DNA of 64,000 nucleotides from Isoetes taiwanensis (Eukaryota > Streptophyta > Lycopodiopsida > Isoetales > Isoetaceae), in the NCBI GenBank assembly GCA_021234155.1, contig JAJEKV010000054.1, positions 372,001-436,000 of the forward strand, read 5' to 3'. The position numbers and the translations under genes were made by a program. The notes under the pieces are model-generated. The model saw only the letters and a list, made by a program, of their open reading frames with translations, had not been told where the DNA came from and ran no database searches. Positions 22,502-51,195 of the stretch are shown piece by piece (within the stretch, counting starts at the first letter, position 1; every line of letters begins with the position of its first letter).

Positions 22502-22533
22502 CACAACAAGAGAATGGACTTTTAGCGACGTGG
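22502..22533 (+). repeat. CACTA left terminal inverted repeat
   Basis: About 30 bp match the right end in inverted orientation with a few mismatches and one gap: CACAACAAGA, then TTTAGCGACG. Confidence 0.8.
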
Positions 22534-23060
22534 GCTTGCGACGTCTGTGCGACGTGACGTCGCAAATAACGTCACCATGCGACGTCAATGCGACGTCCAC
22601 GTCGCGAGCATCGTCGCATCGCGGCGATATGGTGCGACGTCGACACGTATGGTGCGGCGTCGACGACCTCGCGTGGCGTCGCCGGGGACGGACGGCAGGT
22701 GTCACGCCAGCGTGGACGGACGGACGGTGTCACGCCAGGCGGGACGGCGGTGTCACGCCGCCAGTCGCGTCGCATGCGACGTATGGTGCGGCGTCGACAT
22801 TGTGGCGTAGCGGTCATCCGTCCACGCCAGTGGGCGCTTGCGTCGGTGGACGGCGGGTGTGATGTTCTGGCGTGGCGTCGCATGCGACGTCGTATATGTG
22901 ACGTATGTGACGTATGTGTCGTATATGACACGTCAGTACGTATATGTGACGTATATGACACGTCCATACGTATATGTGACGTATATGACACGTCAGTATG
23001 TATATGTGACGTATATGACACGTTAGTACGTATATGTGACGTAGGTGGTCGCATGTGACG
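22530..23060. repeat. CACTA left subterminal repeat region
   Basis: A dense array of GCGACGT/ACGTCGC motifs in both orientations, including CGTCGCATGCGACGT near 22769 and near 22874. Such clusters are binding sites for CACTA transposase-accessory proteins in known elements. The palindromic motifs create mirrored Arg-rich open frames on both strands; I do not treat these as genes. Confidence 0.8.
22921..23040. repeat. 30 bp tandem repeat, four units
   Basis: Four consecutive 30 bp units begin at 22921, 22951, 22981 and 23011. Each reads GTATATGACACGT, then a variable CAG/CCA/CAG/TAG, then ACGTATATGTGAC with one T variant. It forms the inner edge of the left subterminal region. Confidence 0.9.
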
Positions 23061-23209
23061 TATATTTTTTATACACGAAGTTTTGGTTTTTTAGGATTAC
23101 AAATTCAATACATTGGCATGCGATTGATGCATTGCCTCGAAAAAGACTCGGCGACCAACCCGCAGACTTCATTTAAGCGTGTTGCACGCATTACGCATCA
23201 TCACAGTAG

Positions 23210-24093
23210 ATGTGCTACCGCATGAATTACCTCCTTCATCTAGACTTTGAGAAAAATGGTTTTTTTTGGGGCTTTGAGAGATTGCAAGAGCTGGAAAAAT
23301 ATTGTCTCGAACTATATCAGCAAACCAAAGAAGCACATATGGATACGTCAATAATGGGGGAAGAAGGTTATGATTTAAAATCTCATGCTGGGTATACAAG
23401 TAATTCTAATGGCACTATGGAAGTTGAAAGATCAACATCAAGGTTGGAATCGGCGAACAATGCTTGAACTTGCAACTTTACCTGCCAAACGTCAGGATGA
23501 TTTTGTGATATATGATGGTGGAGGAATTTGCGTTTCAATTGCACAAGTTCCATATGAAGCCGACCCCATTGATGAGGATTTTGAAAAGCCGAGATACTAT
23601 GTGGCTACACCTGTTGATGGCCTTGTTTCGGAGATCCATACATGGAAAGTGGAATTGGAACATAGCTCGCCGCTATGCCGAAGAGTATCTAAACGCCAAT
23701 TTGTTACCTTGGAAGTCTTCAAAGTAGAGCATGTCATGGTGCAAAGGAAAATGGGCTTCAGCCTGGAGCTTAGGGATCACAAGGCGGTTGAGCTTGCCGA
23801 CATTGCTGGGGTCCTTTGGTGCAGTTTTTTAACGCCATGCTCAGATTGTTTTCGCTTCATGACTCATGAACTTGTTCCGTTTGAGCGCCAAGATTTTTAT
23901 GGGTTGCTGCTGCATCGATTGTATGATCCGACAGTCACAACATACAGCAGCCAAAAATCATGCGCTTTTTTCGAGAAATCTCTTAACTGTCTTTTTTAAT
24001 TTCTTCATTATGGCCATTCTGAGGTTGTGGAGGTTGTTGCCTTCTTGGACAAGTTTGTTCATCGAAAATCAAGAGAATTGTGGAGTTGGTTGA
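23210..24093 (+). pseudogene. Unrecognised, broken coding region inside CACTA
   Basis: Overlapping frames of 85 and 204 codons have normal-looking protein composition (e.g. EKYCLELYQQTKEAHMDTS, then VPYEADPIDEDFEKPRYYV). They shift frame near 23440-23470. No motif I recognise. It lies between the left subterminal repeats and the SNF2 fragment, so it is a candidate captured gene fragment or a decayed element ORF. Confidence 0.35.
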
Positions 24094-24309
24094 ACTAAAA
24101 TATTTTAATTGGTCATCTAGCAAAATGCTTTGGGAAGAAAATAAGTGTATTCTCTCGCAACATTCATTCTAGAACTTTCTACAACATTCTGGAATTTTCT
24201 AGAAGGATTCCTTAGGCTCACCCAAGATTCTCTTATATTTTAAAACTTTTTAAAACTTTCTAGAACATTCTAGAACTTTCGTATATGTGACATATGTGAC
24301 ATATGTGTC

Positions 24310-24960
24310 GTAGAAGGTCGCATGTTCCAGAAAGGCACCATCTTCATTGTGCCCTTAAGCCCCAGCAAGCACGTGAACTTTTAGTGTGAGCTTTTCTAAT
24401 GGATTGAGCTTCATCCAGAATAATTCTAAACCACCTAATGTTCGACAGTGTGCCCCTTAGCCTGGGGGCCGCTTCTTTTCATCCTCTTCAGATGGCTTTC
24501 GTAATTCAGAACAAATGGTTCCATATGTAGTAAGCACAATGTCGCGGCTTACAAAGTTCAACACAATTTATTCTTCTCTGATCTTCATGGTATATGTACA
24601 CAGATAGCTTGACAGATGGTGCTACTTTTTCCTTCAATTCATGTTCCCATTGTTTTAAAAGCGATTTAGGGCAAACAATCAAGGTGCTCCTGCATTCTTC
24701 TACATTGTATCTTTGACGTTTTGGCGGTCTAGCCTTCAAAATCAAAGCAATTGCAGAGATTGTCTTTCCAAATCCCTGATAATTTGATAATTATAAACAT
24801 ATGAGTTCCCAGACAATGCCTACGAGTTCAGATTTCTCCATCCAAGCAAGGGCAATACGCTATATTACATCCCAACCATGTCAATTGCAGCTATAAAATA
24901 TGAAATAATAATATATCTAGTCATACCTGGTGCTTCAGAAGTTCTATTGTTATCAGGTCA
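24310..24960 (-). pseudogene. SNF2-family helicase fragment (captured), minus strand
   Basis: Read 5' to 3' on the minus strand, an exon ending DNDLITIELLKHQ stops at a GT donor near 24927. After an intron the next exon begins GFGKTISAIALIL (Walker A motif I) at about 24776. It continues with TLIVCPKSLLKQWEHELKEK (motif Ia region) and, one frame over, DIVLTTYGTICSEL and WFRIILDEAQSIRKAHTKSSR (motif II, DEAQ). The order and text match Rad5/HLTF-like SNF2 ATPases, which remodel nucleosomes or act in DNA damage tolerance. About 50 residues expected between LLKHQ and GFGKT are missing, and a frameshift precedes SRDIVLTT. It lies opposite to the transposase, as expected for a captured fragment. 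Confidence 0.75.
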
Positions 24961-26625
24961 TTGTCTAGATTTGCTTCTTCATCTCCTGCAATTGTATTCT
25001 AATATTCTAACCAATTTATCAGGTCCGGTTGCGAATGGCTAATATGGGACTGTGCACAAATGAGTCTCAGCTTGTAGCTGCGGCGAATGCATTCTTATCA
25101 AGTTCTGACCCTGCAAATAATCTCAAAGCAGGACGAAGATATTAGGTACTTTTCCCGATGGGGGTTGGCAAGGAGTATAGAAAATGATGCGCGTCATCTT
25201 TTAGAGAGCTTGATTCACGCGTTGATGATCGAGCCATCGCGCCACAAAAGTTCAGCCTAGAGGATATTATGCTAGACACTCCACCAGATATTTCTGTGGT
25301 GGATCTAGTTGGCTCTCAAGATAGTGTAGATTGGTTAGATAAGAAAGTCCTTGAGACTGGCATTTCATTTCGTGCTTGTGCAACCAAGTGGGCGGCTTGA
25401 TTTGATAACTGATTCTGCGTTGGATTTTTTGTTTCAGCTCGTCATTCCAAAAATCAACGCAGAAGCACATTTGCCTTTATGATGGAATTGTGGGAAAAAA
25501 AGGTAAGATGCTTCGTTTTATAGATTAAAATCAATGCATGTGGAAATTTAGATACATTATTGGGATAGTTCGCAAAGTTATGTCTTATAAAAAAATTTTG
25601 GAGCGAGGTTTGTCAAGGCAAAGAATTTGCAGGTGAATGATGTGGTAAAAACTTTACATCACCGGTGAAGGGATCCTTCTGGCGGTCTTTGAAATTACTG
25701 ATGTTGATGCGGGATGCAATGACCCTTTGCGAGAAAGTTTTCAGTTGTTTGGAGTCGATATTTGGTATTGAAGCAACTTAAATTCTATCTTTTGATATAA
25801 CTATAATATGGTAGTTTTGAGCTCGAGATTAGCTCTGGTTGATCGAATTTTTGAGCTCGAATTTAGCTTATGGTTGATCGAATTTTTGAGGCACCGCCTT
25901 ATGTATATAAGCATGATGTAGAATACAAAAACCGGATATATGATATGATATAGATTTCGAAATCGAGTTTTTCAAAATGGAATTTGAAGATAAAAATATG
26001 AAGAAGATGAATATGATCAGGATGGATATCAAGAAGATGAATGCCACGATGAATAAGGATATGACAATAATATTGCTTGTTTTAATTTGTATAGGTCTAT
26101 TTGTGCTATGGGTATTTTGAAAAAGCGGATGAATTTAGTGATGGACATGGAGTTGGAGATGGTTGATCCGAGAATTTTTGAGCTCATAATTTAGCTTCGG
26201 GTTGATCTAGAAAGAGAAAAAAGAAGGAATTAGAAATGACATATGGATTTACCCCTAGAATTTCTACAACGAGAATATTGGGTAGTCAAAAAGTGGTACT
26301 CCCATATCCTCAGTCCAACATCTTTAGAGAAGCAACAAAATGCAATCTGAATGAGGAACTTGGTGTCCAAAGATAGTGGGAGAATCGCTTATACGGCGAC
26401 TCCTTGCAAATCCAAGGCATTAATGTCCCATGTGTCAAAGCTGTCGATCAAAATTTGCCTAAAAATGCCATCGCCCACAGGGCCGTGGGCATCGTCACGA
26501 CAAATGTCACGGCAAATGTCAGACCTGTCACGCAATTTGCTCTGTGATGCAGCTAATCAAGCTATGTTCAAGTGTTTTGAGGTATGCAGATTTTAGGTTG
26601 TTACACAAAACTTGCTCAGATTTTA
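24961..26625. other. No recognised gene; short internal repeats
   Basis: Pieces with protein-like composition occur on the plus strand near 25255-25400 (e.g. PPDISVVDLVGSQDSVDWL) but are broken and unassigned. Around 25815-25890 and 26160-26210 a ~45 bp phrase (GGTTGATCGAATTTTTGAGC with TTTAGCT) repeats about four times. The rest is AT-rich and featureless. Confidence 0.4.
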
Positions 26626-27509: not shown

Positions 27510-27543
27510 AGGACTACGTGTCCCGCCCCCAATCCATTTAGGA

Positions 27544-27582
27544 TTTAGGGTTTAGGGTTTAGGGTTTAGGGTTTAGGGTTTA
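27544..27582 (+). repeat. Interstitial telomeric repeat (TTTAGGG)5
   Basis: Five perfect copies of the plant telomere repeat TTTAGGG plus a partial sixth, inside the CACTA just upstream of the transposase-associated domain. Confidence 0.95.
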
Positions 27583-27795: not shown

Positions 27796-28385
27796 TTGGT
27801 ATACAATTATTATTTGTTTTTTTTTTTTTTAAGAGTATCTCTCCCAGTTTAAGTATATATTCAAGATGTTTATGATATCTAAATATGTAGGTAGATGATC
27901 TTGATGTCTCCTCCAAACTAGATGTGGATTTTGGTTTAATGTTGTCCATAGAGGCATATGAAACCGGCAAAGAACCGATTCATCAATAATGTGGATGGGT
28001 GCCGCTCAACGCTGAGTGTTCCCCTGCGTGAAAGAACACGAAGGGCTACAATCATGAGAACATTGCATGTGTCGCACATTTCCCAAGAACGCTTGGCCTC
28101 ACTGCCCGAGCGTGAAATTCCTGAAGAATTGCAAAGATTAGTCCGACCCTTTGTTAGGCACCGCGAAGACATTTGGCTTGTGGCGATGACTTACCTATCC
28201 CTATGGATCAAGAATTTGCTTATTGGGGAAGAAGATACATCATTATGCAGCCGCATTTGTCCGTTTGGATTCGCCTTATCTCCCAAGACGCCGTATAGAA
28301 GTGGAGCGAGATACCCACATTCCATTAATGCCATGTGCGGGTCCCGAAAGTAATACGATTGGAAAACTTGGCAAACTTTGACTAA

Positions 28386-28703
28386 ATATGCTTGGCGATG
28401 AGGATTTATGGAATGAATTCCAATGCGTCGATAGGCGTGGGGGCATGTGATGAGGAGTTGAAGTTTATTGATGGTCGGCCGGGGTTCATGGCAATATTGC
28501 AGTGGTTCATCAACGGTTCTATTGACAACCGTGAGCGATGCAATTGTGAATTTTAGAGTGTCAAGGAGGGAGGAAGATTTTTTTACAAGATCCGAAAAAG
28601 CGGATATATCATGGTGTGTGCTATTAAAAGCATAAACATTGGAGATGAGTTATTCATCAACTATCGCTATGATAGACCTCTCCCATTTGAGATGGAACAA
28701 TAG
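28386..28703 (+). pseudogene. SET-domain C-terminal segment inside CACTA
   Basis: The frame reads DGRPGFMAILQWFINGSIDN, RCNCEF, a TAG, then GGRFFYKIRKSGYIMVCAIK and SINIGDELFINYRYD, ending at a TAG. Phe-Ile-Asn-x-Ser, a following N-C, Ala-x-x-x-I-x-x-GDEL-x-x-x-Y is the order of SET motifs III and IV of protein lysine methyltransferases, which bind the methyl donor and substrate lysine. Upstream sequence 27890-28380 is open in pieces but not recognisable. It is broken by stops. It is either a captured host gene or an unusual domain of the element's transposase gene. Confidence 0.55.
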
Positions 28704-28899
28704 TATTGTTGTACTAAAAAAGGAATAAAGAGGTTTTTTTTTTTTTAATATGTTTTTGTCATTCGTGAGTCTATACAAATGGTTGTATTATTTTATACTT
28801 ATTACATTATTTGACATGATGGTTAATCGTTACTCTGGTTAATGAACTCATTCGAGCCGTCTCCATCCCGATCCATTAGTTCTAAGTTACAGTGCAAAG

Positions 28900-31800
28900 G
28901 GAAACCTATCGTCGCGGAATTTCAAGCCGAGCGCACCAATATGAAGATATTGCATACGATCAATATGAAGAGGATGAAACTATTGATTTAACCCGAACGA
29001 AGTCTTTTTCGTTGTGAGCCGATGCTCGATATGTTGCACGCTCTTCAAGAATTACACGATATTGATTTAGATGATGTCGAGGATGGTGGTGGAGAGGATA
29101 TGGTAGAAGATGTGGGATACCCTTCGAGGATTGGTCGACCGACGATGACCCTATTGTTATCGGGGTAAACGCAGCTTATTTCCTGCGTCTCGAACCTCTC
29201 GCTTGTCGGGTGCCCGCTAATTCTCAATCTCCAAACCAAGTTCAAGTGGAGCAATGCAAGTGTCTCTCGCTCTATTGAGGTGACATACTTATCAAGTCTT
29301 TCTATCTTACCACCATCTCCATCTTTTATCTTACCACTCTTAGATGCGAGGTTATTGCACGAGAAGATCCTTCCGAGAAGAACAATATGCCCTACCGACG
29401 GATCTCAAGTTAAGAAAATGATTCAAGCGACCGGCCTTGGTTATAAAGTCATACATGCATGTCCAAATGATTGTATGATCTTCTATCCCCCCGCCGAGCA
29501 TGAGAAGTCCACTCATTGTCTCGTATGTAATGAACCGAGATAGGAATGACCTAAAGGGAAAAAGCGGTACCTTTTAAGGTTATTCGACACTTTCCAATAA
29601 TCCCAAGGTATATGCATCACCACTTCTTACAAATAGTTGTAAATTCACTTATTTTCGGTGACTTATATGTTGCCTATAATTTATTCTATAGGTTAAAGTT
29701 GATGTTCGTTGCAAGACATTGGCTAGCCTAATGGACTTCACGGCTACACATGCATCTAGTGATGATGTGATGCGAGTCCCGGCGACAGTGCGTTTTGGAA
29801 GCATGTCGATGCGACATGGCCCCGACTTTTGAAAAGAACCACGTAAGCGGCGCGTTTGGGCCACCGATGGCGTGAAAACCCATATGGTACACAATCGATC
29901 GCATGGTCTACATGGCCGCTGATGATAGTGAACTACAACATACCCCATGGTTGTTGATGAAGAGTGGGCACATTATGATGACTTTATTGATACCGGGAAG
30001 AAAAACCAAGTAATTTAGATGTGTACCTAAGAATAATTGTGGATGAGTTACTCCCTTTGTGGAACATGTATTCAGTCTCGATGCCCATAAAAATGACGTT
30101 TTTAATCTTAGAGGTATACTATTGTGGACTATGCATGACTTTCCGGGTTTGCCGAAGTGTTCCGGGGTTTAAGACATCGGGGCACTTCCCTTGCATGATA
30201 TGTGGGGAAAAGTTGCAAAGACCGTCACTCTAAGCATCCAAGAAAGTAGTATACTGAGGGTTTTAGGAAGTATTTGCCGCTCCACGCACCCCTTGAAGCG
30301 GCGTGCACAATTCAAAGGGCAATCAGACTATCTGAGAACCACCGCTGCATTACCATACGAGAATGGGGTGAGCGTTGGGATAAGAAGGAAGAGGGGGAAA
30401 ATCCGCAAGGGAAATCCGTAGGGGGGCACTCAGAATGAGGAGGTCGAGCCGACCTAGGCAGTGAGGATGAGGAATTATACAAATGGTGGCGAGGAAGCGT
30501 GAGGAGGAGGAGTCTTTATTGCCAATATGAAAAGGAAGTCTTTTTTTATAGACTACCATATTGGACCGACCTATTGATTCAACACCTTTTTAGACCCGAT
30601 GCATATCTTCAAGAACGTGGGAAACTCTTTATGGAAGCATGTATTTGGTCAAAAAAGACACAACAAATGCCGGGGATGGACCTTAAGGTAAGTAATACAA
30701 AGAAAGAGGCATGGATCCGAGGTGAAGGGCAACCACTTCCTCCGCAAAATGGGTTATTGCTAGGTCTGACCATCGAGCTATTTATGATGATTTAAGGGCC
30801 CTTAGAACACCAACGGTTACATGCAATCATTGCGAACCGCATTCACAAGTAGTGGGAGTCGATCGGGTTTAAAGTCCCATGGTGGCATAAATTCTTGCAT
30901 GTAAGCAATTGAAGTCCACATATATATGCACTACTATAAAATGTAACCCATAACTTATATTTGGTGTTTGGATCATGCGGTTCTTCATGCCCCGACCTTT
31001 AGGGGAGTTTTAGACAAGGGACCATTGGAGGCAATAAGTGCCCTATCAAAGGTCATAAGGTTGTTACCCATGTTGATTTAGTGGTCCCCGTCTATTTTAT
31101 TTGTGGCTAAGTTTTTGTTTTGGACCTCATAGGTGGATGTGTAAAAAACTATACGAAAAGACTAAATTGAAGAGATGAAAGTGAAAATGGCGGAGGCATG
31201 TTGCTTGTTGGAGAAGGAGTTTCCTACGAGCTTTCTTGACGGATCAAACCCATCTTTTGGTACATCTTATTGAGGAAGTGGAGCTCATGAACCGTACATG
31301 CGCCGATGGATGTTTTTCTTGGAAAGGTTTATGAAGGTATTGAAGGATATGGTGCGTCAAAGAGCACGTCCCCCAAGGTAGTATGGCAGAGGGATGGCTT
31401 GGCGAAAGAGTCACTTTTCTATATGACCGAGAATATATTTCCGCCGGTACATCCGGATGCACCTCGCTTTATGGAGTGATGAAGGGACGAAGATTGTGGG
31501 GGTAGTGGCGTAAGGCAATGGTATGCGAGAAGTCATTTCACCGATATGATCATTAAGGTTAATCAATTTCTTCTTTACAATTCGCACCAATGGCAAAATG
31601 GATTGCTTTCGTTATGAGAACATAAGCGAAGAAATGGAAGAGAAGAGGCATGAATGGAGACGACATAATAGCGAGCCCGTACCTCGATGGATATGAACCC
31701 TTTTGGGACAAGATGGAAAGAGAATGGGTACTACAAGCTTTGACCGATGCATATCACAAGGGGAGTATATTACGCCTACGGAATGGGCATACGACAAGGT

Positions 31801-32560
31801 GTCATGAAAAGGTAGTTGCAACAAATTATGTTGATGTCGAAATCGAAAGTATTTTCTTTTGATGTTATTGTATCTATTGACATTAATGGTGCTTTGACAA
31901 AGATATATCTTACTCCTCGATATGGTGGCATGGGACCCACTATCGTGTGAGTTCTCTTGACATACACGGAAGACTTGTGGATCATGTGAGTCATGGCATC
32001 ATTCACGATGGAGTTTCAATCAAGTGTTGCCGATCGTAATCGTCGTCGAAGCCAAGCCCGCGTGATTGGGCCGGAGGTTAAAGACTATAATGGAGGTGGA
32101 TGTTGGTGGCAATTTTAAGACCTTCATATTCGATGTCGATTGGTTTGACCTTCAATTAAGGGGGCCAGCCTACAAGAAAGTATGATAGAACAAGTGGCTT
32201 TTTTCGCCAACTCTAGCAAGATGTACCCCGGTAGTGAGGCGCTTGTCCTTCCGCATAACCGCGTGAGCAGTACACACATACACATATCCACTTCAAAATT
32301 TAGACCATCAATATCAATCTCACGTCCGGCTTCTTTGACCAGATTTTTTCTTTACCGATCGACAAGACCCAACATGGTGGTTTATCATACAAACTACACC
32401 GGGGGGCCAATATTCCAAGGTGTTGTGCTAGAGGAGTCAATAACGTCTGAAGAGCCCTCCGCGAGATCAAGGCATTCAAACTCACTTAGGAAAACGAGCA
32501 TCAAGAGGTTGGACCACCAGCTCTCATGCAAACATCTTACACCGAGCAATTCCACCTAAA
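28900..32560 (+). pseudogene. TNP2-like CACTA transposase, heavily frameshifted
   Basis: The family blocks appear in the correct order in different frames. FKWSN and LGYKVIHACPNDCMIFY with HCLVCNEPR lie at 29230-29545. A VDVRCKTLASLMDF-type stretch and PYGTQSIAWSTWPLMIVNYN lie at 29690-29945. DVYLRIIVDELLPLWN lies at 30020-30065, followed by a LWTMHDFPG-like piece and KTSGHFPCMICGE near 30100-30215. An FLERFMKVLKDMVRQRARPP-type DUF4218 block lies near 31190-31500. A DUF4216-like stretch with VADRNRRR and SLQESMIEQVAFFANSSKMYPG lies at 32010-32250. At least ten frame changes separate them, so no active transposase is encoded. Confidence 0.85.
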
Positions 32561-33309: not shown

Positions 33310-36300
33310 GTTAACATGAGTGGTCTTTCTCGGGTCGCCGTAACTTGGTCCCGAGGGCAACGCCGACGCTTCCGAGTCCATTGGCGAGTCAAATCGCGAT
33401 TCGACGAGAGGAGGTCGTCGTCCGCCCCGTGGGCCTTGGGGAGAGGAAATTCGGGGCAAGCTTACCGGGATTTTAGGGTCCGCGGATCAAGGCCAACACC
33501 CCCACTCCATCGTCAAGTCATACCTGGCTAAAGGTCCCGCCCAAATCGGAAGAAGGAGAGGGCCTCCAAAACGCGTAAACCCGTGGGTTGCCGGTGTTCT
33601 AGAAGGGTTTTGCGCTTTGGGGCCGGGAGACTTGGTCCGTTGCACTTGGGACTGGCCGAGAAGTACCGGTGAATACGGAGCAAGGGGAACTGACGGAGCT
33701 GGAGTTGGCCCTGCCCTCCTCCCGATGTGGCAAGTAGAAGTCGGGGCTTTGCGCTGGCAAGACATTCATAAATTCGCATAATTAATGCATTGTATGCGAA
33801 AATAAATTCTGATTTTTGCCACCTGGAATCCTAATCCATTTCCAGCATACAGCCCAATTTTCGAAATTTTAGGAGAAGGTCTAGGTCAAAGGGTTAGCAT
33901 TAGAGCGGCGGGGCAGCCCGTTGCGGGGCAACCGTTGTGGCACCCTTCCCCAAGTCAAACGAGGCCAGGACCTTGCGGGGATCCCTCACAAGAGGGGAGA
34001 GTCCGGACCCCAAGAGGCGGGATCCAAAAAGTTCGAGGCAGCCCTTCCTCGGCTTGGGCTCCCCCTCGGGCTGACGTAATGACCCTCCCGAGGCTGGTTC
34101 CCCTATCCGACCGTTGGATCCTCCATTCAGGGCCCCTCTTGGGGAAGGCCCAAAAGATTCCGTGATCGGTCGGGAGAACTTGTCAAACCGCGGGCGCCAC
34201 GAGGTCGGCCTTGTAGAAACATGATGTCTTGTCGTTAGCACCGGGAGGCTCGAATGGCAAATCGACCCCCGCCAAATCGTCAGGAATGGTGAAATTACCC
34301 TAGGGAGCAAGTTACAAGGTCGGTTTTGCAAAAGAAAGAAAACACTCACGCCCTCCACGACAAGATCCCGCGATCCACATCCTAGGCCAATTGACTACGA
34401 AAGTGTGATGGAAGTGAGCTACTTTGGCGCTTCTTGAGGTCGGGTGCTCTTCCGCCCGCGGAACTTGGTCCCGTGGCAACGCGTCGACGTTCGAGTCCAT
34501 TGGCGTAGTCAAATCGCGATTCCGGAGAGGGAGGTCGCCCGTCCGGCCCCCGGGGCCTTGGGGAGAGGAAACGGCAAGCAGCGGCTTCGGGGGATTTTAG
34601 GGTTCGTGCTCTGGCGTCAACACCCCCACTCCACGTCAGAATCACGCCGGGCGCTAAAGGTCCCCGCCCGAACCGACAAGAGAGGGCCTCCAAAACGTAA
34701 ACCACGTGGGTTGCCGTGTTCTAGAAGGGTTTGCGTTTTGGGGGGGACTTGGTCCATTGCACTTGGGACCTGGCCGAAAGCCGCAACCCGAGAATCACGA
34801 GCATGGGGAACCGACGGGAGTTTGGGCCTGTCCTCCTCCGATGTGGCAAGTAGAAGCTCGGGGGCTTTGCGCTGGCAAGACATTCATAAATTCGCTAATT
34901 AATGCATTATACGAAAATAAATTCTGATTTTTGCCATTTGGAATCCTAATCCATTTCAAAGACACAGCCCAATTTTGAAATTTTCGAGAAGGTCTAGGTC
35001 AAAGGGTTAGCATTAGAACGGTCGGGGCAGCCCGTTGGGTAACAACCGAAGCCGCACCCTTCCCCAAGTCAAACGAGGCGGGGACCTTGCGGGGATCCCT
35101 CACAAGAGGGGGGAGAGTCCAGGACCCAAGAGGCGGGATCAAAAAGTTCCAGGCAGCCCTTTCCCGGCAATGGGCCCCTGGGGCTGACGCTAATGACCAC
35201 CCTCCCGGCCGGTTCCCCTATCCGACCGTTGGATCCTCCATTGAGGGGGCCCTCTTGGGGAAGGCCCAAAAGATTCCAGATCGGTCCGGAGAACTTGTCA
35301 AACCGCCGGGCGGCCCCGAGGTCGGCTCGAGGTCGGCCTTGTAGAAACCGCCGTTGTCTTGTCGTTCGGCGCGGGAGGCTCGAATGGCAAATCGACCGCC
35401 AAATCGTCCGGAATGGCGAAATTACCCTAGGGGGAGCAAGTTACAAGGTCGGTTTTGCAAAGAAAGAAACACTCCGCCCTCCACGACGGTATCCCGTGAT
35501 CCACATCCTAAGGCCAATTGACTACGAGTGTGATGGAAGTGAGCTACTTTGGCGCTTCTTGGAGGTCGGGTGGTCTTCTCGGCCCGGAACTTGGTCCCCG
35601 TGGCAACGCCGGCGTTCCGAGTCCATTGGCAGAGTCAAATCGCGATTCCAGGAGAGGGAGGTCGCCCGTCCGGCCCCCGTGGCCTTGGGGAGAGAAGGTC
35701 GGGGCCCAAGCGGCTTCCCGGGATTTTAGGGTCCAGGTGCTCAAGGCGTCAACACCCCACTCCGTCAAGTCACGGCAGCAAGGTCCGCCAATCGACAAGG
35801 AGAGGGCCTCCAAAACGTAAACCCCGCGGGTTGCCGTGTTCTAGAAGGGTTTTGCGTTTTGGGGGGCGAGACTTGGTCTGTTGCACTTAGGACTGGCCGA
35901 GAAGGGCAGCCCAGAAGAATGAGCAAGGGGAACTGACGGAGCGGAGTTTGGGCCTGTCCTCCTCCCGATGTGGCAAGTAGAAGTCGGGGGGCACTTTGCG
36001 TTGGCAAGACATTCATAAATTCGCAATTAATGCATTGTCCGAAAATAAATTCTGATTTTTTGTCAGCTGGAATCCTAATCCATTTCAGCACAACACTTAA
36101 TTTTTGAAATTTTAGGAGAAGGTCTAGGTCAAAGGGTTAGCATTAGAGCGGTGGGGCAGCCCGTTGCGGGGGCAACCGGTGGCACCCTTCCCAAGTCAAG
36201 CGAGGCGGGGACCTTGCGGGGATCCCTCACAAGAGGGGGAGAGTCCCGGACCCCAAGAGGGGATCAAAAAAGTTCCCGAGGCAGCCCTTCTGGCGGCGCT

Positions 36301-39300: not shown

Positions 39301-42300
39301 CGGGGGCTTTTGCGTTGGCAAGACATTCATAAATTCGCGAATTAATGCATTGTGCGAAAATAAATTCTGATTTTTGCCAGCTGGAATCCTAATCCATTTC
39401 CGCCAAAGACACAGCCCAATTTTTGAAATTTTGGAGAAGGTCTAGGTCAAAGGGTTAGCATTAGAGCGGTCGGGGCAGCCCCGTTTGCGGGGGCAACCGA
39501 GCTGGCACCCTTCCCCAAGTCAAGCGAGGCCGGGACCTTGCGGGGATCCCTCACAAGAGGGGAGAGTCAGGACCCCAAGAGGCGGGATCCAAAAAGTTCC
39601 CGAGGCAGCCCTTCTGGCGGGCTCCCGGGGGCTGACGCTTAATGACCACCCTCCGGAGCCGGTTCCCCTATCCGGCCGTTGGATCCTCCGTTCAGGGGCC
39701 CCTAGGGGAGCAAACAAGGTCGGGAAGGCCCAAAAGATTCCAGGATCGGTCGAGTGTGGGAAAACTTGTCAAACGGCCCGCGGGCGTCCCGAGGTCGGCC
39801 TTGTAGAAACCGCGAGTGTCTTGTCGTTCGGGCGGGGAGGCTCAGGAATGGCAAATTGACCCGCCAAATCGTCCGGAATGGCGAAATTACCCTAGGGAGC
39901 AAGTTACAAGTCGGTTTTGGTAAAGAAAAGAAACACTCACGCCTCCCGCGGCGGTATCCCCGCATCCACATCCTAGGCCAATTGACTACGAAAATAAAGT
40001 GTGATGGAAGTGAGCTACTTTGGCGCTTCTTGGAGGTCGGGTGGTCTTGGAGTTTGGCCACGGAACTTGGTCCCGGGGGCAATGTCGGCGTCCTCGAGTC
40101 CATTGGCGAGAGTCAAATCGCGATGAAGATAAATTCTGGAGGGGAGGTTGCCGTCCGGATTCGGGCCTGCCCCTGTTGGCCTGGGGAGAGGAAATCTTGG
40201 GGGGCAAGCGGCAAGGGGATTTTTAGGGTCCGTGTTTTGGCGTCCAACACCCCCACTCCCCGTCAAGTCCGTTTTTGGCGCCAAGGTCCCTTGGTCCCGA
40301 ATCGACAAGGAGAGGGCCTCCAAAACGTAAACCCCGTGGGTTGCCGAGGTTCTAGAAGGGTTTTGCGTTTTGGGGGGCGGGACTTGGTCGAATGAATCGA
40401 CATTGCACTTGGGACCTGGCGAGAAGCTGGGGCCAGAGAATCTACGCAGGAGCAAGGGGAACCGGCGGAGGCGGAGTTTGGGCATGTCCCTCCTCCGATG
40501 TGGCAAGTAGAAGTAGGCTTTTTTGCGATGGCAAGACATTCATAAATTCGCAATTAATGCATTGTGCGAAAATAAATTCTGATTTTTGCAATTTGGATTC
40601 CTAACCCATCTCCAAAGACACGGCCCAATTTTGAAATTTGGGAGAAGGTCTAGGTCAAAGGGTTAGCTAAGGTCAAAGGAATGGAGTTTGTGGGATCGTT
40701 GTACTTAGGGTTGACCTTGGCTCATTTGGGCGTTATACTTGGTCTAAGATTGCATTGAGAATATAAGCATCATAACTATTAGAATGAAGATAAATGATTA
40801 CATGAAAAGCATCATAACTACTAGAATGAAGATAAATGATTCTGAGAAAAGTAAAAAGACTAGTCTTGCGGGTTGGGGGTTAGATTTGGTTGCTTGTGAT
40901 GATGGTTGTGTTTTCAAGTATCAAGGCATATGGATAGAGAATGCCCTTGTTCAAGCGATTTTGCTCCCTAAAGCTATTTGACATGGATGGCATAATTAAC
41001 TTGTAATGAACTGAATTGGGGCAAGCAACTTAGGGGGAGGAGTTTGGGGTCCAGCTCTGGTGTCAACACCCCCACTCCATGTCAAGATCACGGTGCAAGG
41101 TCCAGACCAAATCGACAAGGAGAGGGCCTCCGAAATGTAAACCCCGTGACTTGCCGGATTCTAGAAGGGTTTTGTTTTGGGGGCGAGTTTTGGTCTTTCG
41201 GCCCACGAGAACTTGGTCCCGGGGCAACGTCGGCGTTCACGAGTCCATTGGCGAGTCAAATCGCGATTCGGAGAGGGAGGTCGCCCGTCCGTCCCCGGGG
41301 CCTTGGGGAGAGGAAATTGGGCAGCGGCTTAGGGGGATTTTAGGGTCCAGGTGCTGGGCGTCCAACACCCCCACTCCCGCGTCAAGTCCGCGAGGCATGA
41401 GGTCGATCGACGACAGAGAGGGCCTCCAAAGCGTAAACCACGTGGGTTGCGAGGGTTCTAGAAAGGGTTTGCGTTTTGGGGCGAGACTGGTCTGTGTTAC
41501 TTAGGACCTGGAGAAGCCGTAGGAAATCTGAACAAGGCAGGGGCTGGCGGCTCGAGCGGAGTTTGGGCCTGTCCTCCTCCCAGATGTGGCAAGTAGAAGT
41601 CGGGCAGGTGGCAAGACATTCATAAATTTCAATTAATGCATTGTCTGAAAATAAATTCTGATTTTTTGCGGTGGATTCCTAACCCATCTCGGCCTACGGC
41701 CCAATTTTTGAAATTTTCGGAGAAGGTCTAGGTCAAAGGGTTAGCTAAGGTCAAAGGAATGGAGTTTGTGGGATCGTTGTACTTGGGGTTGACCTTGGCT
41801 CATTTGGACGTTATACTTGGTCTAAGATTGCATTGAGAATATAAGCATCATAACTATTAGAATGAAGATAAATGATTACGTAAAAGCATCATAACTACTA
41901 GAATGAAGATAAATGATTCTGAGAAAAGCAAAAGACTAGTGCGGGTTGGGGGTAGATTTGGTTGCTTGTGATGATGGTTGTGTTTCAAATTATCAAGGCA
42001 TATGGATAGAGAGAATGCCCTTGTTCAACTGGTTCGCTCCCTAAAGCTATTTGACATGGATGGCATAATTAACTTGTAATGGCTGAATCGGGGCAAGCAA
42101 CTTAGGGGGAGTTTAGGGTCCCGGCTCTGGCGTCAACACCCCCACTCCATGTCAAGATACGGTGCAAGGTCCGACCAAATCGACAAGGAGAGGGCCTCAA
42201 ACGTAAACCACGTGGACTTGCCGATTCTAGAAGGGTTTTGTTTTTGGGGGCCGAAGTTTTGGTCTTGGCCCGCAGAACTTGGTCCCCTAGGGCAGCGTCG

Positions 42301-43570
42301 GCGTTCGAGTCCATTCTGAGAGTCAAATCGCTTGATTCAGGGAGGGAGGTCGCCCCGTCAGGTCCCCAGGGCCTTGGGGAGAGGAAATCCGGGGGCAAGC
42401 GGCTTAGGGGAGGATTTTAGGGTCCAGTGCTCTAGCATCAACACCCCCACTCCAAGTCACGAGCGCCAAGGTCAGCCCCTAATCGACAGGAGAGGGCCTC
42501 CAAAGCGTAAACCACGTGGGTTGCGAGGGTTCTAGAAGGGTTTGCGTTTTGGGGGCGAGACTTGGTCTGTTGCACTTGGGGACGGCGAGAAGCCGCAACC
42601 CCGAGAATACGGAGCAAGGGGAACAGACGGGGCGGAGTTTGGGCCCTGTCCTCCTCCGATGTGGCAAGTAGAAGTCAAGGGGCTTTGCGTTGGCAAGACA
42701 TTCATAAATTAGCAATTAATGCATTGTGCGAAAATAAATTCTGATTTTTTGCCGGTGGATTCCTAATCCATCTCCATCACCACCCAATTTTGAAATTTTG
42801 AGGAGAAGGTCTAGGTCAAAGGGTTAGCTAAGGTCAAAGGAATGGAGTTTGTGGGATCGTTGTACTTGGGGTTGACCTTGGCTCATTTGGGCGTTATACT
42901 TGGTCTAAGATTGCATTGGACGTAAACCCTGTGACTTGCCAGATTCTAGAAGGGTTTTGTTTTGGTTTTTCTGCTCCCTAAAGCTATTTGACATGGATGG
43001 CATAACTAACTTGTAATGAACTGGTTTTGTTTCTCAGAAACAATTGTACCTTGATGAAAGATTGCTTCATAGTTTCCAAGTGAAAATTTTTTTAATGTGT
43101 CCGCACCGCCTTGTTGCCCCCTGGTCAAAGACTCGCCTTTTTTCGATGCACACTCTTTTAGTTATGCATTTTATTGCATTTATGGTTTATAAATTCGTAG
43201 TTAATGCATGGCATGGAATTAAATTATGGTTTTTGGTCAGCTGGCTTCTATGGTCATCACCGTAAAGATCTGAGGAAAATTTCCAAAATTTTAGGATAAG
43301 GTCGAGACCAAGCGTTGGGGTTAGAACGGTCGAGGCAGCCGTTGTTGGGCAAGCATGTAGCACCCTTCCCCAAGTCAAACAAGGCGACTTTGAATGGCCA
43401 CCTCGATGAGAGGGAGAGTCCGATCCCAGTGAGACGGACCCCAAAAACGTTCGGCGGCAACTGTCAGCACCGCCCACAGGGGGGCGTATGCTAATGAACA
43501 CCCTCGAAGCTTAGTTCCCCTATATATTCGGACCGTTGAATCCTCCGGTTCAAGGATCCAGCCTCAGGAC
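33310..43570. repeat. ~10.3 kb tandem array of ~1.1 kb units
   Basis: The marker GGTCTAGGTCAAAGGGTTAG recurs at 33878, 34991, 36121, 37230, 38336, 39439, 40647, 41725 and 42808 (spacing 1078-1208), with a diverged copy near 43298. Other landmarks recur with it: GTGTGATGGAAGTGAGCTAC, GAGAGGGCCTCCAAA, GATGTGGCAAGTAGAAGT, AGACATTCATAAATT. The first six are type A. The last three are type B, where about half of the unit is replaced by a ~370 bp AT-richer segment (GGAATGGAGTTTGTGGGATC...). Units differ mostly by 1-6 base gains and losses at G/C-rich spots. GC content is visibly higher than the flanks. Many overlapping open frames exist on both strands but none is conserved in frame, so I call no genes. 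Confidence 0.95.
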
Positions 43571-43745: not shown

Positions 43746-43915
43746 TTTGAACCAGCGGGCCGGCTTTTCGGGAACTTTTTTTGCCCTACTTCTTGAGGTT
43801 CTTGGGGCGATCCAGCGGGCGCTAGTACCACGATCTACACGCAAGCAACTATTCTAAGGTTAGTATATCATGTTTTTAGATTGAATAGGTTTTTGGATTG
43901 AATGGTGCATGCCCA

Positions 43916-44735
43916 ACCTTCCTTTTTTTTGGTTTCCTTTCCTTCCTCTTCTTCTTTGTTCTTGATTTTTTTTCTTCCCATTCTTCCATGCCTCGTTCAT
44001 TCTTCCTCCTTCTTTCTTTCTCATGCTTCATTTCTTCCTCATTCTTCCTCATGCTTCATTTCTTCCTCCTTCTTCCATGCTTCATTCTTTCCTCATTCTT
44101 TCTTCCCATATTTCTTCTTTCCTCATTTCTTTCTCATTCTTTCTTCCTCATTCTTTTCTCATTTCTTTCTTCCTCATGCTTTCTCATTCTTTATTCCTCA
44201 CTCTTTCTCATTCTTCCTCATTCTTTCTAATTTCTTGCTTTCTCATTTCTTTCTCATGCTTTCTCATTTCTTTCTCATGCTTTCTCATTTCTTTCTCATG
44301 CTTTCTCATTTGTTTCTCATTTCCATTCTTTCTCATGCTTTCTCATTCCTAATTCTTTCCCCTCCCTTCCCTCATTTCTTTCTTCTCTTCCCTTCCTTAT
44401 TCTTCATTTTTTTTCATTTCTTATTCTTCATTCTTTTTAATTTCATTTCTTCATTCTTCATTTGTTTCTTATTCTTCACATTTCTTCCTCACTTTCCATT
44501 CGATCCTTTTCTTTCCCTTCCCTTATTTCTTCCTTCCATTCTATTCCCTTCCCTTCTCTTATTTCCTCTTATTTTTCTTCATTCTTTCTTGTTTCTTCTC
44601 TTATTTCTTCTCTATTCTATCCTTATTTCTTCCCTTCTATTCTCTTATTTCTTTCTCTTGTTTTATTTCTATCTCTTGTTTTCTATCCCCCCCCCTTTTT
44701 TTCCTTTCTTTCTTCTTGATCTTTTTTTCTTCTTT
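43916..44735 (+). repeat. ~820 bp polypyrimidine tract
   Basis: The plus strand is almost exclusively C and T with sparse A and G, e.g. tandem TTTCTCATGCTTTCTCATTTC near 44230-44320. A 312-codon Phe/Ser/Leu-rich open frame spans it, but its composition is explained by the tract. It occupies the same relative place as the short pyrimidine leader at 26948-27030, between a subterminal cluster and the stem-loop repeats. Confidence 0.9.
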
Positions 44736-44892
44736 GTTCTTATTCCTCTAATGCTTTGTTACTCTACATTTGCAGCTTTCTATTACGATTTGGACCCGGC
44801 GGGATCTTGTACCACGTCCCTTATTTTGGTAAGTAGTTGATCACACTTGCATTTTATTTTTATAGTTTTAAGTAGGTTAAAAAAATTGATGG

Positions 44893-45918: not shown

Positions 45919-47270
45919 CATAAAAATGGCCTCGATGGGGACGAGATGCTTAGTGAAATTAGCGCATCCTCATCAATCAAATATCGCCTGCAGACCCAGA
46001 CCCGGAACGACATATGCAAACCGATGATCGAATTAACCGTTTTGTAGCATCGGTTGAGAAAGAATGTCGGTGCGAATTATGTGGGAGGTGGCGAGCATGA
46101 GTCCGAGTTGGAAGATATGATGAGAAAGAACTTAAAGTCTTGGGTTTGCAATCCCGAGCGAGAATTGAGGATGCTACTTAAGTATAAAGTGCCACTTATG
46201 AGCCCCTATCTTTGAGGCATACGTGGGGACGATGGGCTAATTGTATGAAGTGCAAAGGTTCGACGCATAAAAGATCACAAGATGGCGATGCTGTCCTCGA
46301 TGATGGCGGTGAAGGAGTTAGATAGTCTTATCCATGGTGGGAGCTCTATTGGTGCGGGGGCTAGATTATCATTACATGCTCATGATAAATGTCTTTGCAT
46401 TTATTGACAAACATTCCTGTGGATCTTTGTTGGAGTTGTAAAGTGCATTGGTAGTAAACAAGACCGCCAAATATACCAAATCGGATCTTGGGAACCCCTG
46501 TACTTTAATCAAGATGATTATTATATGGCATTGTGTGGAGAGGCCAAGATAGAGCTGCATCATGGTTGTTGGTGACAAGTATATCCGTTTCAAGAGCCCA
46601 AGTCCGGCATTGGCCACACCCCTTGGACTTGCCCACGAGGTCTTTGTGGAGATGAGCCACGAGGGGACCAATGGTAGTCCTGCCATTCATGAATGGAGGA
46701 ACCTTTGAGAATTACTTGACCATCTTCCGAGCCAATTCTCTTCTTATAGGAGATGGTCAAATGCAATGCATAGTGCTCCAAGAAGGGCTGATATGAAGAT
46801 AAGTGCGGAGTGGAAAGCCAAAATGAGACTTCGTGTATAAATGCGTCCCGAAATAGCTCTCGCTCTTGCGAAGGAGTCTATGCCATCCACGCTCGGGTTG
46901 GACACACACAAAGCTCAATTGCAAAAGGGTCAAACTCCATTTTGATGACTCCCTTACAAATGTGTGGGTGGCTATTGGTGATTGGGACACGGCCCTCGTT
47001 TTTTGCAAGGAGCGAATGCCCAAATTGAAGAGCCGTTATACACTACAAGATGGAGCTAAGCGATATCCTTGGTGGGAGAAGAGAGTTTTTACATCATCAT
47101 CAGATGACCAAGCATCATGGGGGCATGAGATATCCGACATATATTCCCCGGGCTACATTTACGAGATGCTCCTTGATTTTTGTCCAGCAATGCGGCTTAT
47201 GGGGTTGTGTGTTGAGATAAACCCAACCGACCGATACTCTCTAGCACATTGGACATCATCCAACATATGA
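45919..47270 (+). pseudogene. Unrecognised CACTA-internal coding region, frameshifted
   Basis: Protein-like stretches occur in several frames: MRKNLKSWVCNPERELRMLL near 46110-46190, MAMLSSMMAVKELDSLIHGG near 46280-46340, and a 134-codon frame at 46866-47270 with VAIGDWDTALVFCKERMPKL and SPGYIYEMLLDFCPAMRLMG. The region is preceded by an intron-acceptor-like site. I do not recognise the family. A degenerate second element ORF or a captured gene are both possible. Confidence 0.4.
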
Positions 47271-47599: not shown

Positions 47600-47910
47600 A
47601 GTGTCGCTACAGACGTCAAACCCTAGGTTTTGTGTGCTACATCATCAAACCCTAGATTGTAAATGCCATGTGGCACAATCTAGGGTTTGATGATGTGGCA
47701 CACCTAAGCTAGGGTTTGATGACATGGCACTTACTATGATGTGGCAATAGGAAGTCGCGACGTGACACAACCTAGGGTTTGATGATGTGCCACACGCATA
47801 GCGTGGGGTTTCATGATGTGGCACTAAAAATGCCACGATGGGATAATTTAGGGTTGATTGTATGACATGATACATGGCACGATAATATGGCAACCTAGAG
47901 TTCGATATGC
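47600..47910. repeat. Degenerate CTAGGGTTTGATGATGTGGC repeats
   Basis: At least six imperfect copies of (C)TAGGGTTTGATGATGTGGCAC or its complement in both orientations (complement CATCAAACCCTAG near 47640). Spacing about 40-60 bp. No coding content. Confidence 0.8.
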
Positions 47911-48049
47911 ACCCCATACATATATCTGAGATACTTTTCTAATATAAATAAGAAGATAAGAATATAAATTTAGGTATTTATTCAAAGACACTTGTTCAAA
48001 GCTTTTCTCTCGCTAATTCTCGTTATGTTCAAATTAATATATATAGTCA

Positions 48050-48162
48050 TGGCGGAGGCTCAATTCTTAGCGGTTTTCCTCATTGTGGCCCTCTTTCTGC
48101 TGATGCAATATTCATGGCATTACGCGTCTCCCCCTCCGCCCCCGGTCAAGACGGTCAAGACT
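48050..48162 (+). CDS. Possible small exon: hydrophobic leader plus proline run
   Basis: ATG at 48050 gives MAEAQFLAVFLIVALFLLMQ, a signal-peptide-like segment, then a run of prolines and KTVKTA before GTAAGT, a donor-like site. It may be the first exon of a small secreted or membrane peptide, or part of the element's next ORF. Evidence is limited to composition. Confidence 0.3.
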
Positions 48163-48349
48163 GCAGTAAGTCTGCCGGGGCTCATTAGTGGCACATTTCG
48201 AACCATAAAAATACTATTTTTCATCTCTATGGTTTGTAAGTATCATTCTATTATTGCAACCAATATCATTCATGGTTATCAAATGTTTCTCTCACAATTT
48301 CTTTTGATCTAGGTGTGCTCTTTTTCTCGGCGATGAATAGAGGTAATCG

Positions 48350-50472
48350 CTAATCGCATGAGGAGAATGAGCAAGACGAAGGTAAGTATTTATATAGTTT
48401 TTATTATATGCTTTACCCTCTAATTAGGTATGTGAGTTTATGCATGGAGTTTTAATTTGTTGTGTAGAGGAAAGGGACGAGTTTAGAGAAAATAGGAGGA
48501 GGACTCCACGAGGTAGGGGCAATCGTGCTGATGGTCCTCCAAGACGCCAACCTCCACCTATCACTACACCAAAGCGAGGTTTGGGTATTAAGATAGCTTT
48601 TTTATAAAAATAATAAATAAATGAATTGTTTTTGCATGATATTTGTGCTTCTGCGACTCCTCCGCCTCGCTCCGCCTTCCTCGCAAACATGTCTCCGAGA
48701 GAGACCAAATTAAAAGCATATTTTGCCTCTTTGACACCAACGCCCGGTTAGGTGACCTCCCGCTCCTATTCCCCAACGACATAGTGTTGATTATCGGCCT
48801 CCACGTTCGCGAGAATATTGAGAATGCTAGACATAGTATGGACTCGTTCTAGGCAAAGAGGCGAGGGAACAGATTTTTCTAATGCAAGGAACTTGGAGGA
48901 AGATTTCAACGGTAAATATATATCCACTACGCATTACCAAACATTTCTTTGGTTGCAGCATGTTAAAGATGCTCATTCTCTCATTACTTCCCAGGTCAAG
49001 AAGTAGTGGAGCAACAGACTCACAACCTTCAAGATCGCGACGATCATCACAGGGTTCGGGATCCGAAGAACATGGTCGCTCGCCTGACTTGGAGAGGCAA
49101 GGATCCCGACGACGTCCACGTGTCACTGAAGAAGAGCGTCCATTTCGCTTTGTTTTAGACACGTAAGTCTGCGGGTGATTTGGCCCCGAATATACCCGAC
49201 TATCATATTAATAATAATTTTTTGATGTAAGTTATGTGAACATATTATTTAAGATATCAACCTTAAATATTAGTACTTTGTCATCTAAATTTGTTGTTTT
49301 GTTCATTCTCTTCACTTAGAATACATTGCAAAGTGCTCAAAAGGTTCTTAATCGGGACGGGATATGTATATTGACGGTAGACATAAACACGCTTTTATAT
49401 ACCCACCATTTATGCTTCAGGGACGCTCTTCCTAAGAAGGATGATGAGGGAAGTGTCTTTTATACTACACTGAGGGACGCGGTCACAAATAATATCTCTC
49501 GTTTATGGCCTCCCCGCGGTATAGGGGAGTGGCCTGGCGCTTATGACCAACGCGAAATAGAGAGCGTCAAAAATAAAATGAAACAGAGTTTCCCAGAGAT
49601 AGAAAAAGCAAAGGCGTTTAACTGGAAGAAGCTCACTTCGATGATGGGCGAGCTTATACGTAAAAGGAGGTACATGACCTAGTCATAGTCTTGTTTTTAT
49701 TATTTTGATATGGCGTTGATCTATCGATTTATGTCAAAGGCACCATGTGGTCAAGGAACTGAAGCAGACTTGCGAAAAAGAAGGAGGCGATTGGTCAAAA
49801 GTCCCTAAACCACTTAATCTCCACAAGGAAGATATCAAGGTATTTCTTATTTTTTTTGTCATTCGTTCACTTTAACTTGTGATAATGTTGTGTGCCTTGC
49901 AATCAGATTGCATTGAGCGAACGCAAAGGATCCAGAAAGCAAACATAGAGCTCGGACCGACAAAGCAACTAAAAGTGATCGAAAGGCGTCTCATTTGGGC
50001 TCCGGCGGTCGAAAAGGGTTTTTCCATAGATTCGTAAGAGCTATATTAGTTCACATTAATTTTAATAAGAACTTTAAATGTCACTAGCTAATACTCGTTA
50101 TATTGTCATAGGAACATCTATACGGGTTTGCCCCTAACAAGCAGCAGGTACAAGTAGCCCACTTTGAACGTGGAAATTTGTTTATCTGTATCAACAAGGT
50201 TATCTGACGAGGGAACTCTCCCAATTGGCGGGAATGCGGGGGGGTGCGTTGTAGAAAATTATTATAATTCTATGAACTACATTATCGCCATATTCTTTTG
50301 GTTTTTATAGGAAGCAGTGGCGGATATGAATGAAGGTCTACAGCATGACATAAGGCTCGGGCGCGGCGAGGGATCTGCAAACGTCGATGGAGAGCCATCC
50401 AATCGCAACCGTACCGTGCGTCCTCTAACTACGTACTCGGATGACTACTCCACTGAATCTGAGAGAGAGTAG
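48350..50472 (+). pseudogene. Possible second CACTA ORF (Transposase_24/Ptta-like), multi-exon
   Basis: Exon-like islands with GT/AG edges include about 48470-48580 (basic, Arg/Pro-rich) and about 48990-49160. A 118-codon frame at 49326-49682 contains LWPPRGIGEWPGAYD and KAFNWKKLTSMMGELIRKRR. Next come about 49740-49840 (HHVVKELKQTCEKEGGDW) and about 50311-50472 ending YSTESERE and TAG. The DAVTNNISRLWPP...W.....KNKMKQSFPE....+ pattern resembles the plant Ptta/En/Spm ORF1 family. The assignment is tentative. It lies just upstream of the right subterminal repeats. Confidence 0.4.
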
Positions 50473-50679
50473 CTCTAGGCTAAAAGGGTGGATACTCCTC
50501 TTAACGAGTCTTTTGTGATTATTTAAAAATATAAATACAATTCACTTTTGTGATTATTTAAAAATATAAATATAAAAATAATTTTGTGACTATTTAAAAA
50601 TATGAATATAAAAACACTTTTGTGATTTTTTAAAAATATTTTTATATAAATATATTTTTTATTTTTTTTTATTTTTTTC

Positions 50680-51165
50680 CCCTTCACGTCGCATGCGACG
50701 TATCCACGTGGCTTTTTTTTTTTTGCCACGTGGCTTTTTTATATAAATATATATATTTTTTTTTCCCCTTCACGTCGCATGCGACGTATCCACGTGGCTT
50801 TTTTTTTTTGCTACGTGGCTTTTCTACACGCCGGATTTTTCGGAATTTTCCGCGAACCGTTTCTACGGTCACGCCGCATGCGACGATATACGCGGGCTTT
50901 TCACCACGCGACGTGGATTTTGGTGATGTTCCACGGTATATTCCACGGTATATTCCACGGTATATTTCACGTGTCACGTGCCATGCGACGTCTGCGCGAC
51001 GTCTGTTTCATCGCCTCATACGCTGACGCCTCGCGCTGACGCCGGCCAACGCCGATAGCGTCGACGCACGCCGCGATGCGACGAAACCGGCAACGACGCC
51101 GGCGTCTGATAGAAGCGCGACGACGCGTCGACGTCCAGACAGATGTCGCGCAGACGTCGCTATTG
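50680..51165. repeat. CACTA right subterminal repeat region
   Basis: Contains two ~88 bp units, each with CACGTCGCATGCGACGTATC followed by CACGTGGC and a T-run (50685 and 50773). Then come CACGCCGCATGCGACG, three tandem CCACGGTATATT units (50928-50965), and a dense GACGTC/GCGACG block. Confidence 0.85.
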
Positions 51166-51195
51166 GCGTCGCTAAATGGCCTTTTTCTTGTTGTG
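51164..51195 (-). repeat. CACTA right terminal inverted repeat
   Basis: It ends CTTGTTGTG, followed by the target duplication ACT. Read on the minus strand it gives CACAACAAGAAAAAGG and ATTTAGCGACGC. Confidence 0.8.

Follow-up and report, generated by a model that had tools for sequence, protein, structure and literature searches.

A broken 28.7-kb CACTA/EnSpm element of Isoetes taiwanensis and the SET-domain gene that its lineage very probably keeps beside the TNP2 transposase

Tgmt* of soybean is a CACTA/EnSpm element of 20.5 kb (PMC2613891), and Jozin, a CACTA-like element of Chenopodium quinoa, is 16.5 kb in length and contains a satellite array of 32.5 copies of a 171-bp unit (PMC8978399). 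According to the accessible parts of these and the following papers, a TAD (PF13963) upstream of TNP2 is usual in Chenopodium elements, not defining (PMC8978399), and gene capture by CACTA elements is known (PMC13317346, PMC8616336). SET genes are reported in HarbingerS and MuDR transposons of the oomycete Phytophthora, TET/JBP genes are found in fungal transposons including EnSpm, and fungal EnSpm elements are assigned by CAC..GTG ends and a 3-bp duplication (PMC12730594). VANDAL/VANC is an anti-silencing system of Arabidopsis (PMC10398659, PMC5735166). Here, a stretch of 64,000 nucleotides of Isoetes taiwanensis DNA (assembly GCA_021234155.1, contig JAJEKV010000054.1, positions 372,001 to 436,000, forward strand), called the window below and numbered from its first base, was analysed. 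It contains a large element at 22502–51195 that is best explained as a whole, with high probability, by a single insertion of a broken CACTA/EnSpm copy whose lineage keeps a SET gene beside the TNP2 transposase gene. The element itself adds a member to an established superfamily; the novelty lies in the lineage that carries SET, and the SET gene, not the length, is the finding of note.

The genome searched was the window's own (1,658,258,908 bases in 1110 contigs), and other places in it are named by our C and L handles. Four remnants on the plus strand of the window make up the coding block of the element:

27891–28700 (+): SET-domain exon remnant with 9 stops in the aligned translation (tblastn with the intact L072 SET frame, E 3e-60)
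28789–29390 (+): remnant of the exon between the SET and TNP2 domains (tblastn, best piece E 6e-48)
29325–30909 (+): TNP2 transposase remnant with many stops and frameshifts (Pfam, and tblastn with intact relatives)
31113–31828 (+): DUF4218-region remnant, the downstream part of the transposase gene (tblastn, E 9e-45)

Intact relatives used as tblastn queries place the SET exon, linking exon, TNP2, and DUF4218 in this order, with stops in all of them. Pfam detects a weak piece of TNP2 in the window copy (E 2.4e-4). The co-terminal sibling C932 has a 425-aa frame that matches PF02992 (Transposase_21) at E 2e-68, and L071 and L072 match it at E 1e-75 and 1e-73; PF13960, of the DUF4218 region, is present in related copies. 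The transposase is therefore of the PF02992 TNP2 type that marks CACTA/EnSpm elements and not a Harbinger transposase, and the TNP2-type gene that the first-pass annotation of the window had placed inside the element is there, though broken. No intact transposase frame exists in the window copy, stops and frameshifts being found in SET, TNP2, and DUF4218. It is non-autonomous, yet of full size for the large CACTA/EnSpm family to which it belongs.

The SET remnant was traced to intact frames elsewhere. Each fetched locus in three subfamilies has one long SET frame, 273–279 aa overall (A, L072, 273 aa; B, L071, 274 aa; C, L099–L101, 278–279 aa), with intact examples at L071:3029-3850 (−), L072:2623-3441 (+), and L099:211-1044 (+). 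Amino acid identity is ~61–63% between A and B and ~47–50% between C and B. All eight singly scored frames, that of sibling C1090 among them, match PF00856 at 23.6–32.6 bits, against a curated cut-off of 22.4, as expected of SET family members. In alignment A1, every one of the 12 members has a match at E<=1, the best being 1.1e-7. Conserved GxG-like, FIN..NC, and GDEL..Y stretches are what we take to be the SET motifs. Where the first-pass annotation had seen gene fragments only, one of them is what is left of a SET-domain gene, a gene kept beside TNP2 by the transposon lineage.

Linkage of the two genes was assessed among listed matches only, with 139 of 150 TNP2 and 149 of 150 SET matches used. 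In a first table, 35 of the 139 TNP2 matches have a SET match 0–3 kb upstream on the same strand, where ~0.07 pairs are expected by chance. Adding SET matches picked by eye from a second search raises this to 48/139. Spacing is 923–1263 bp in 46 of these 48, with one at 1409 and one at 2645 bp. In the window's own family, a listed SET match lies inside 18 of 40 left ends, 16 of them 5.6–6.05 kb from the end.

Substitution rates were compared within and between subfamilies. SET dN/dS between A and B is 0.19–0.22 in 4/4 pairs, at dS 1.3–1.5 (TNP2, 0.094). Pairs within C (dN and dS of 0.048/0.19, 0.106/0.39, and 0.112/0.41) give ratios of 0.25–0.27; dS is saturated between C and the other subfamilies. 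These ratios show the predicted SET frame to be under purifying selection between A and B and within C.

In all three subfamilies, the SET frame opens directly behind AG and ends in a stop. The next transposase exon of A and B also appears to open in phase 0 behind AG, and no in-frame splice donor was seen at the SET end of these two when the sequence was read by eye. Together, the phase-0 starts, the SET stop, and the missing in-frame donor suggest that SET is probably a separate product, which either a gene of its own or alternative splicing would yield. TNPA and TNPD of En/Spm are alternative splice products.

Several results weigh against the overall explanation given at the outset. No listed SET neighbour was found for 91 of the 139 listed TNP2 matches, a count that can be taken neither as a rate nor as proof of absence. 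SET dN/dS is 0.77, 1.33, and 2.07 in recent pairs of subfamily A and 0.30 in one pair within B: most of the recent copies decay neutrally, and lasting lines keep the SET frame. Among siblings of the window family, no codon-phase bias was found in any 450-base segment at the set threshold. The usual NHS motif reads NSS in the SET frames, so catalysis by the predicted protein is uncertain. A search of solved structures by sequence returned no SET chain (nearest, a PR/SET domain at E 1.1), and the basis for assigning the frames to SET is therefore Pfam together with motifs identified by eye; the C1090 SET frame alone matched no PDB chain. Finally, C1040 shares the left end and SET-TNP2 block of the window element, and in the DNA fetched it has neither the internal array described below nor a right end that could be found.

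The lineage encodes a predicted SET protein of ~275 residues, mostly 0.9–1.4 kb upstream of TNP2 on the same strand. This protein would alter chromatin or a partner protein to the benefit of the element, for example against silencing. The TNP2-type transposase would cut at CACAACAAG ends and re-insert with a 3-bp duplication, presumably by cut-and-paste, and giant copies with broken genes would be moved in trans by other copies. Such a role of SET, with chromatin or a partner protein as its target and anti-silencing as one form, is the likeliest that we can name and is put forward tentatively. No firmer is the fuller proposal that SET would take the place of TAD as a standing part of the transposition block and rewrite chromatin at the element's own copies or targets to escape silencing, with broken giants carried in trans. 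The SET and TNP2 frames of the window copy are broken, and this copy was therefore probably mobilised by another. Breakage after landing is the alternative, against which stand the many lesions of the element beside a target copy still 94–99% identical to the uninterrupted ones compared.

In another tentative reading, SET serves the transposition machinery as a module that is structural or binds DNA or protein; it replaces TAD and is not an active methyltransferase. SET lies upstream of TNP2, roughly at the site that TAD has in other TNP2 loci of this genome. TAD itself gave 11 matches genome-wide, six of them upstream of listed TNP2 matches, and none of these six (0/6) has a listed SET match nearby, so the two were not seen together among listed matches; no TAD was found upstream of TNP2 in the SET-bearing lineage, where a divergent one could be missed. 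The change of NHS to NSS also fits a binding module. Retention of the other motifs (GxG-like, N-C, and GDEL..Y) argues against this reading, and with a stop and no visible in-frame donor in A and B, SET is unlikely to be simply fused to the transposase.

Passive capture of a host-gene fragment (transduplication), with SET as Pack-CACTA-like cargo without a role for the transposon, is improbable. CACTA elements do take up gene pieces in the accessible parts of two reports (PMC8978399, PMC13317346), the window family also has an SNF2-related piece, and recent subfamily A copies and window siblings evolve without constraint. A captured fragment would fit poorly with a distance from TNP2 that hardly varies and a constant strand, with whole frames of 273–279 aa in three subfamilies, with a dN/dS of ~0.2 at dS ~1.4 between A and B, and with the 1652 and 1852 rough first-pass candidates that two versions of the SET query gave genome-wide. 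If the frame is kept by selection in several lycophyte CACTA subfamilies, SET-bearing transposons would extend to CACTA and to plants. Where transposons bring epigenetic tools of their own, the struggle of silencing against escape can be put to a direct test.

The insertion itself is defined by the following features:

22502–51195 (+): whole CACTA/EnSpm element, 28,694 bp (ends, 3-bp duplication, co-terminal siblings, paralogous empty sites)
22499–22501 (no strand): left target-site duplication ACT (single copy at empty sites)
51196–51198 (no strand): right target-site duplication ACT (borders compared, empty sites)
22502–22531 (+): left terminal inverted repeat CACAACAAGAGAATGGACTTTTAGCGACGT (first 26 bases the same in most sibling left ends examined)
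51166–51195 (−): right terminal inverted repeat, an imperfect match to the left repeat (end comparison)
22520–23070 (no strand): left subterminal CGTCG-rich region with a 30-bp repeat (limits approximate, by eye)
50690–51180 (no strand): right subterminal CGTCG-rich region (limits approximate, by eye)

The left end at 22502 reads CACAACAAG (over a longer stretch, CACAACAAGAGAATGGACTTTTAGCG), and the right end reads CTTGTTGTG, with 51195 as its last base. These are 5′-CAC...GTG-3′ termini in inverted orientation, as in CACTA/EnSpm elements. They had been described as CACTA-type, which holds for the inverted CAC...GTG ends and not for the letters: the literal CACTA pentamer is absent from both ends, which read CACAA. 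The CACTA name derives from maize-type elements. Counts of GCGACG/CGTCGC per kilobase bin are 14 at the left end of the element, 12 at the right end, and 0–9 in intervening bins; these counts agree with the CGTCG-rich arrays claimed for both ends and give the element the subterminal repeats of the superfamily. Its 3-bp target-site duplication, another CACTA/EnSpm character, is the ACT that had been noted on both sides, and is supported by 13/19 sibling end pairs and by the empty sites. A 23-bp tandem repeat, said to be interrupted by the left end and completed on the right, is present at 22457–22501, and the right flank contributes just its final two bases. An Rfam search of 22400–51300 gave no RNA family match. 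With co-terminal copies, the ACT duplication, and empty sites in agreement, the earlier call of one CACTA-type element with exact ends is confirmed: 22502–51195 is one CACTA/EnSpm insertion.

The first-pass annotation had proposed an empty site and further copies with both termini as checks on these borders, and both were found. The flanks joined with one ACT match uninterrupted DNA along their full or almost full length at 14 places (82–100% identity), and seven further places match with 72–76% identity. The best, C133, is 100% identical across the 395-bp junction query. The target is a dispersed repeat of ~2.1 kb (21398–22501 plus 51196–52161), interrupted exactly at ACT; against C133 and C907, its left part is 97.5–98.9% and its right part 94.5–95.9% identical. 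The matching uninterrupted sites are paralogous empty sites. An allelic empty site was rejected, as homology ends at the limits of the 2.1-kb repeat. The insertion is younger than its copy of this repeat.

Copies sharing both termini were sought with terminal 500-bp queries, of which the best 40 of 707 (left) and best 40 of 542 (right) rough candidates were scored; counts are thus lower bounds. In all 40 scored left places, the window included, the match starts with the first or second base of the query. For the right query, base 498–500 is reached in 36/40, the window included and three via a second piece, and is not reached at C478, C916, C412, and C183. A co-oriented right end was found as partner for 19 of the 39 other left ends, both borders being fetched. 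Clean termini with identical 3-bp duplications are present in 13/19 pairs, which span 3.1–71.7 kb by match coordinates, those above 30 kb possibly including nested elements or assembly gaps:

Clean end pairs (kb): C985 27.3; C932 27.5; C1032 44.5; C1060 29.2; C1090 10.0; C1072 51.4; C1100 15.5
Clean end pairs (kb), continued: C1081 46.5; C1099 66.1; C1070 71.7; C922 3.7; C1037 32.5; C952 3.1

The size of the window element had been thought uncommon; within this range, 28.7 kb is ordinary for the family. Intact ends with differing flanking triplets occur in C1058 (CAG/GAG) and C1003 (GGA/ATT), and right ends are damaged or unresolved in C1029, C1036, C412, and C183. An apparent duplication match at C183 is spurious, with no right end in the stretch. 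End pairs 51–72 kb apart were seen at C1070, C1099, C1058, C1036, and C1072, with exact duplications in three of the five (C1070, C1099, and C1072). Dozens of co-terminal copies and the empty sites open the trans movement of very large elements to study.

Between its ends, the element contains three further parts:

33342–42828 (+): tandem array with a period of ~1.1 kb and two unit types (same place in siblings)
24509–24790 (−): SNF2-helicase-related frame piece, 94 aa (PF00176, E 1.2e-12; shared with siblings)
43902–44837 (+): pyrimidine-rich tandem tract, open in one frame (long open frames also in siblings)

Eight siblings (C985, C932, C1060, C1029, C1100, C1090, C922, and C952) were fetched. 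The first four follow the window element colinearly across left part, array, and right part; these siblings (24–29 kb) are 92.5–95.4% identical to it outside the array. The other four retain the two ends but are missing internal portions, like deletion derivatives. The array and gene pieces lie at the same places in siblings and were therefore not acquired by the window copy, so the earlier picture of a satellite and gene fragments as cargo of this copy does not hold, and private capture of the array by it was rejected on the same ground. It is accordingly very unlikely that the 28.7 kb is a nested composite in which the array, SNF2 piece, and others were inserted one by one into a short CACTA element here. 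Short co-terminal relatives (3.1, 3.7, and 10.0 kb) would suit such a history, as would relatives that lack the array or the SNF2 region; the short copies keep both ends without the middle, as internal deletions do, and four siblings of 24–29 kb with the same order of parts and ~93–95% identity outside the array already contradict it for the window copy. An accidental pairing of ends from two different elements, to which the non-matching duplications of C1003 and C1058 could point, is ruled out by the matching ACT, by uninterrupted target copies joined exactly at the junction, and by the 13/19 pairs with matching duplications.

A relative at L072 and L098 (C1040), in which the left end is shared and the SET frame intact, lacks the SNF2 region. 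It departs from the window element exactly at the start point of the array.

The 1.1-kb array is an old component of the window subfamily with variable copy number. Its position is identical in C1060 and C1036, GC content is ~0.55–0.6 across much of its length, and the number of units varies between copies. The array query gave 4986 rough first-pass candidates in the genome. At 15 other array loci, the next 3 kb contained the right half of the family at eight, array only at three, an array scrap and one weak piece at one, and no family DNA at three. A coding repeat was rejected as a reading of the array, three of its longest frames (L046, L051, and one from the window) having no Pfam match. 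Relatives of the SNF2 piece, among 433 rough first-pass candidates, occur widely in the family and in elements related to it, and stops are frequent in them; several copies are 99–100% identical in amino acids to the window's, and others are full of stops. The plant telomere unit TTTAGGG is present in 6.6 copies at 27537–27582. Frames at 46857–47267 and L047:4525-5046 look protein-kinase-like by eye, from IGDWD and DIYS-like motifs, but searches gave no Pfam, NCBIfam, or meaningful PDB match for either. Searches with 49320–49679 gave no match.

Outside the element, two copies of a related frame (MDQSKTCLPQ...) lie ~5.8 kb apart to its left, at 13–603 and 5717–7012, and possibly encode another transposon's protein. 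Duplication of the DNA there is suggested, too, by a 30-bp tandem pair that is identical at 5144 and 10659. The element is flanked by copia-type and LINE-type reverse transcriptase-like frames, identified by eye, at 19111–19869 (+) and 61100–61555 (−). An intact 580-aa frame at 56271–58013 is pentatricopeptide-repeat-like by eye.

A literature search, with most subscription journals and Repbase Reports outside its reach, found no SET-encoding CACTA element, and CACTA is not mentioned in the accessible parts of the genome papers on Isoetes taiwanensis (PMC8566536) and I. sinensis. As far as the accessible descriptions go, the family resembles Tgmt* and other plant CACTA elements in its CAC...GTG ends, 3-bp duplication, subterminal repeats, TNP2, deletion derivatives, and large size. 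It differs from them in its CACAA ends, its SET frame upstream of TNP2, its internal 1.1-kb array, and its end pairs up to 71.7 kb apart, possibly with nested inserts or gaps. Like Jozin, it has a tandem array within a CACTA element; the unit here is ~1.1 kb, of two types, and shared in place by siblings, whereas Jozin is reported as a single case. The coding order is related to that of Jozin, with SET here where TAD is there. HarbingerS and MuDR of Phytophthora are likewise DNA transposons that encode a SET-domain protein, a likeness of SET presence by description; the superfamily here is CACTA (TNP2, 3-bp duplication) and the host a plant. Fungal EnSpm elements with TET/JBP genes share the combination of an EnSpm-type element and an epigenetic-enzyme gene, which is a DNA dioxygenase in fungi there and a SET domain in a plant here. 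With VANDAL/VANC, the likeness would be one of purpose, an element-encoded protein that counters the element's own silencing, a role proposed here by inference only; VANC proteins belong to a MuDR-type element and bind it sequence-specifically, and the protein here would be a SET-domain protein of a CACTA element.

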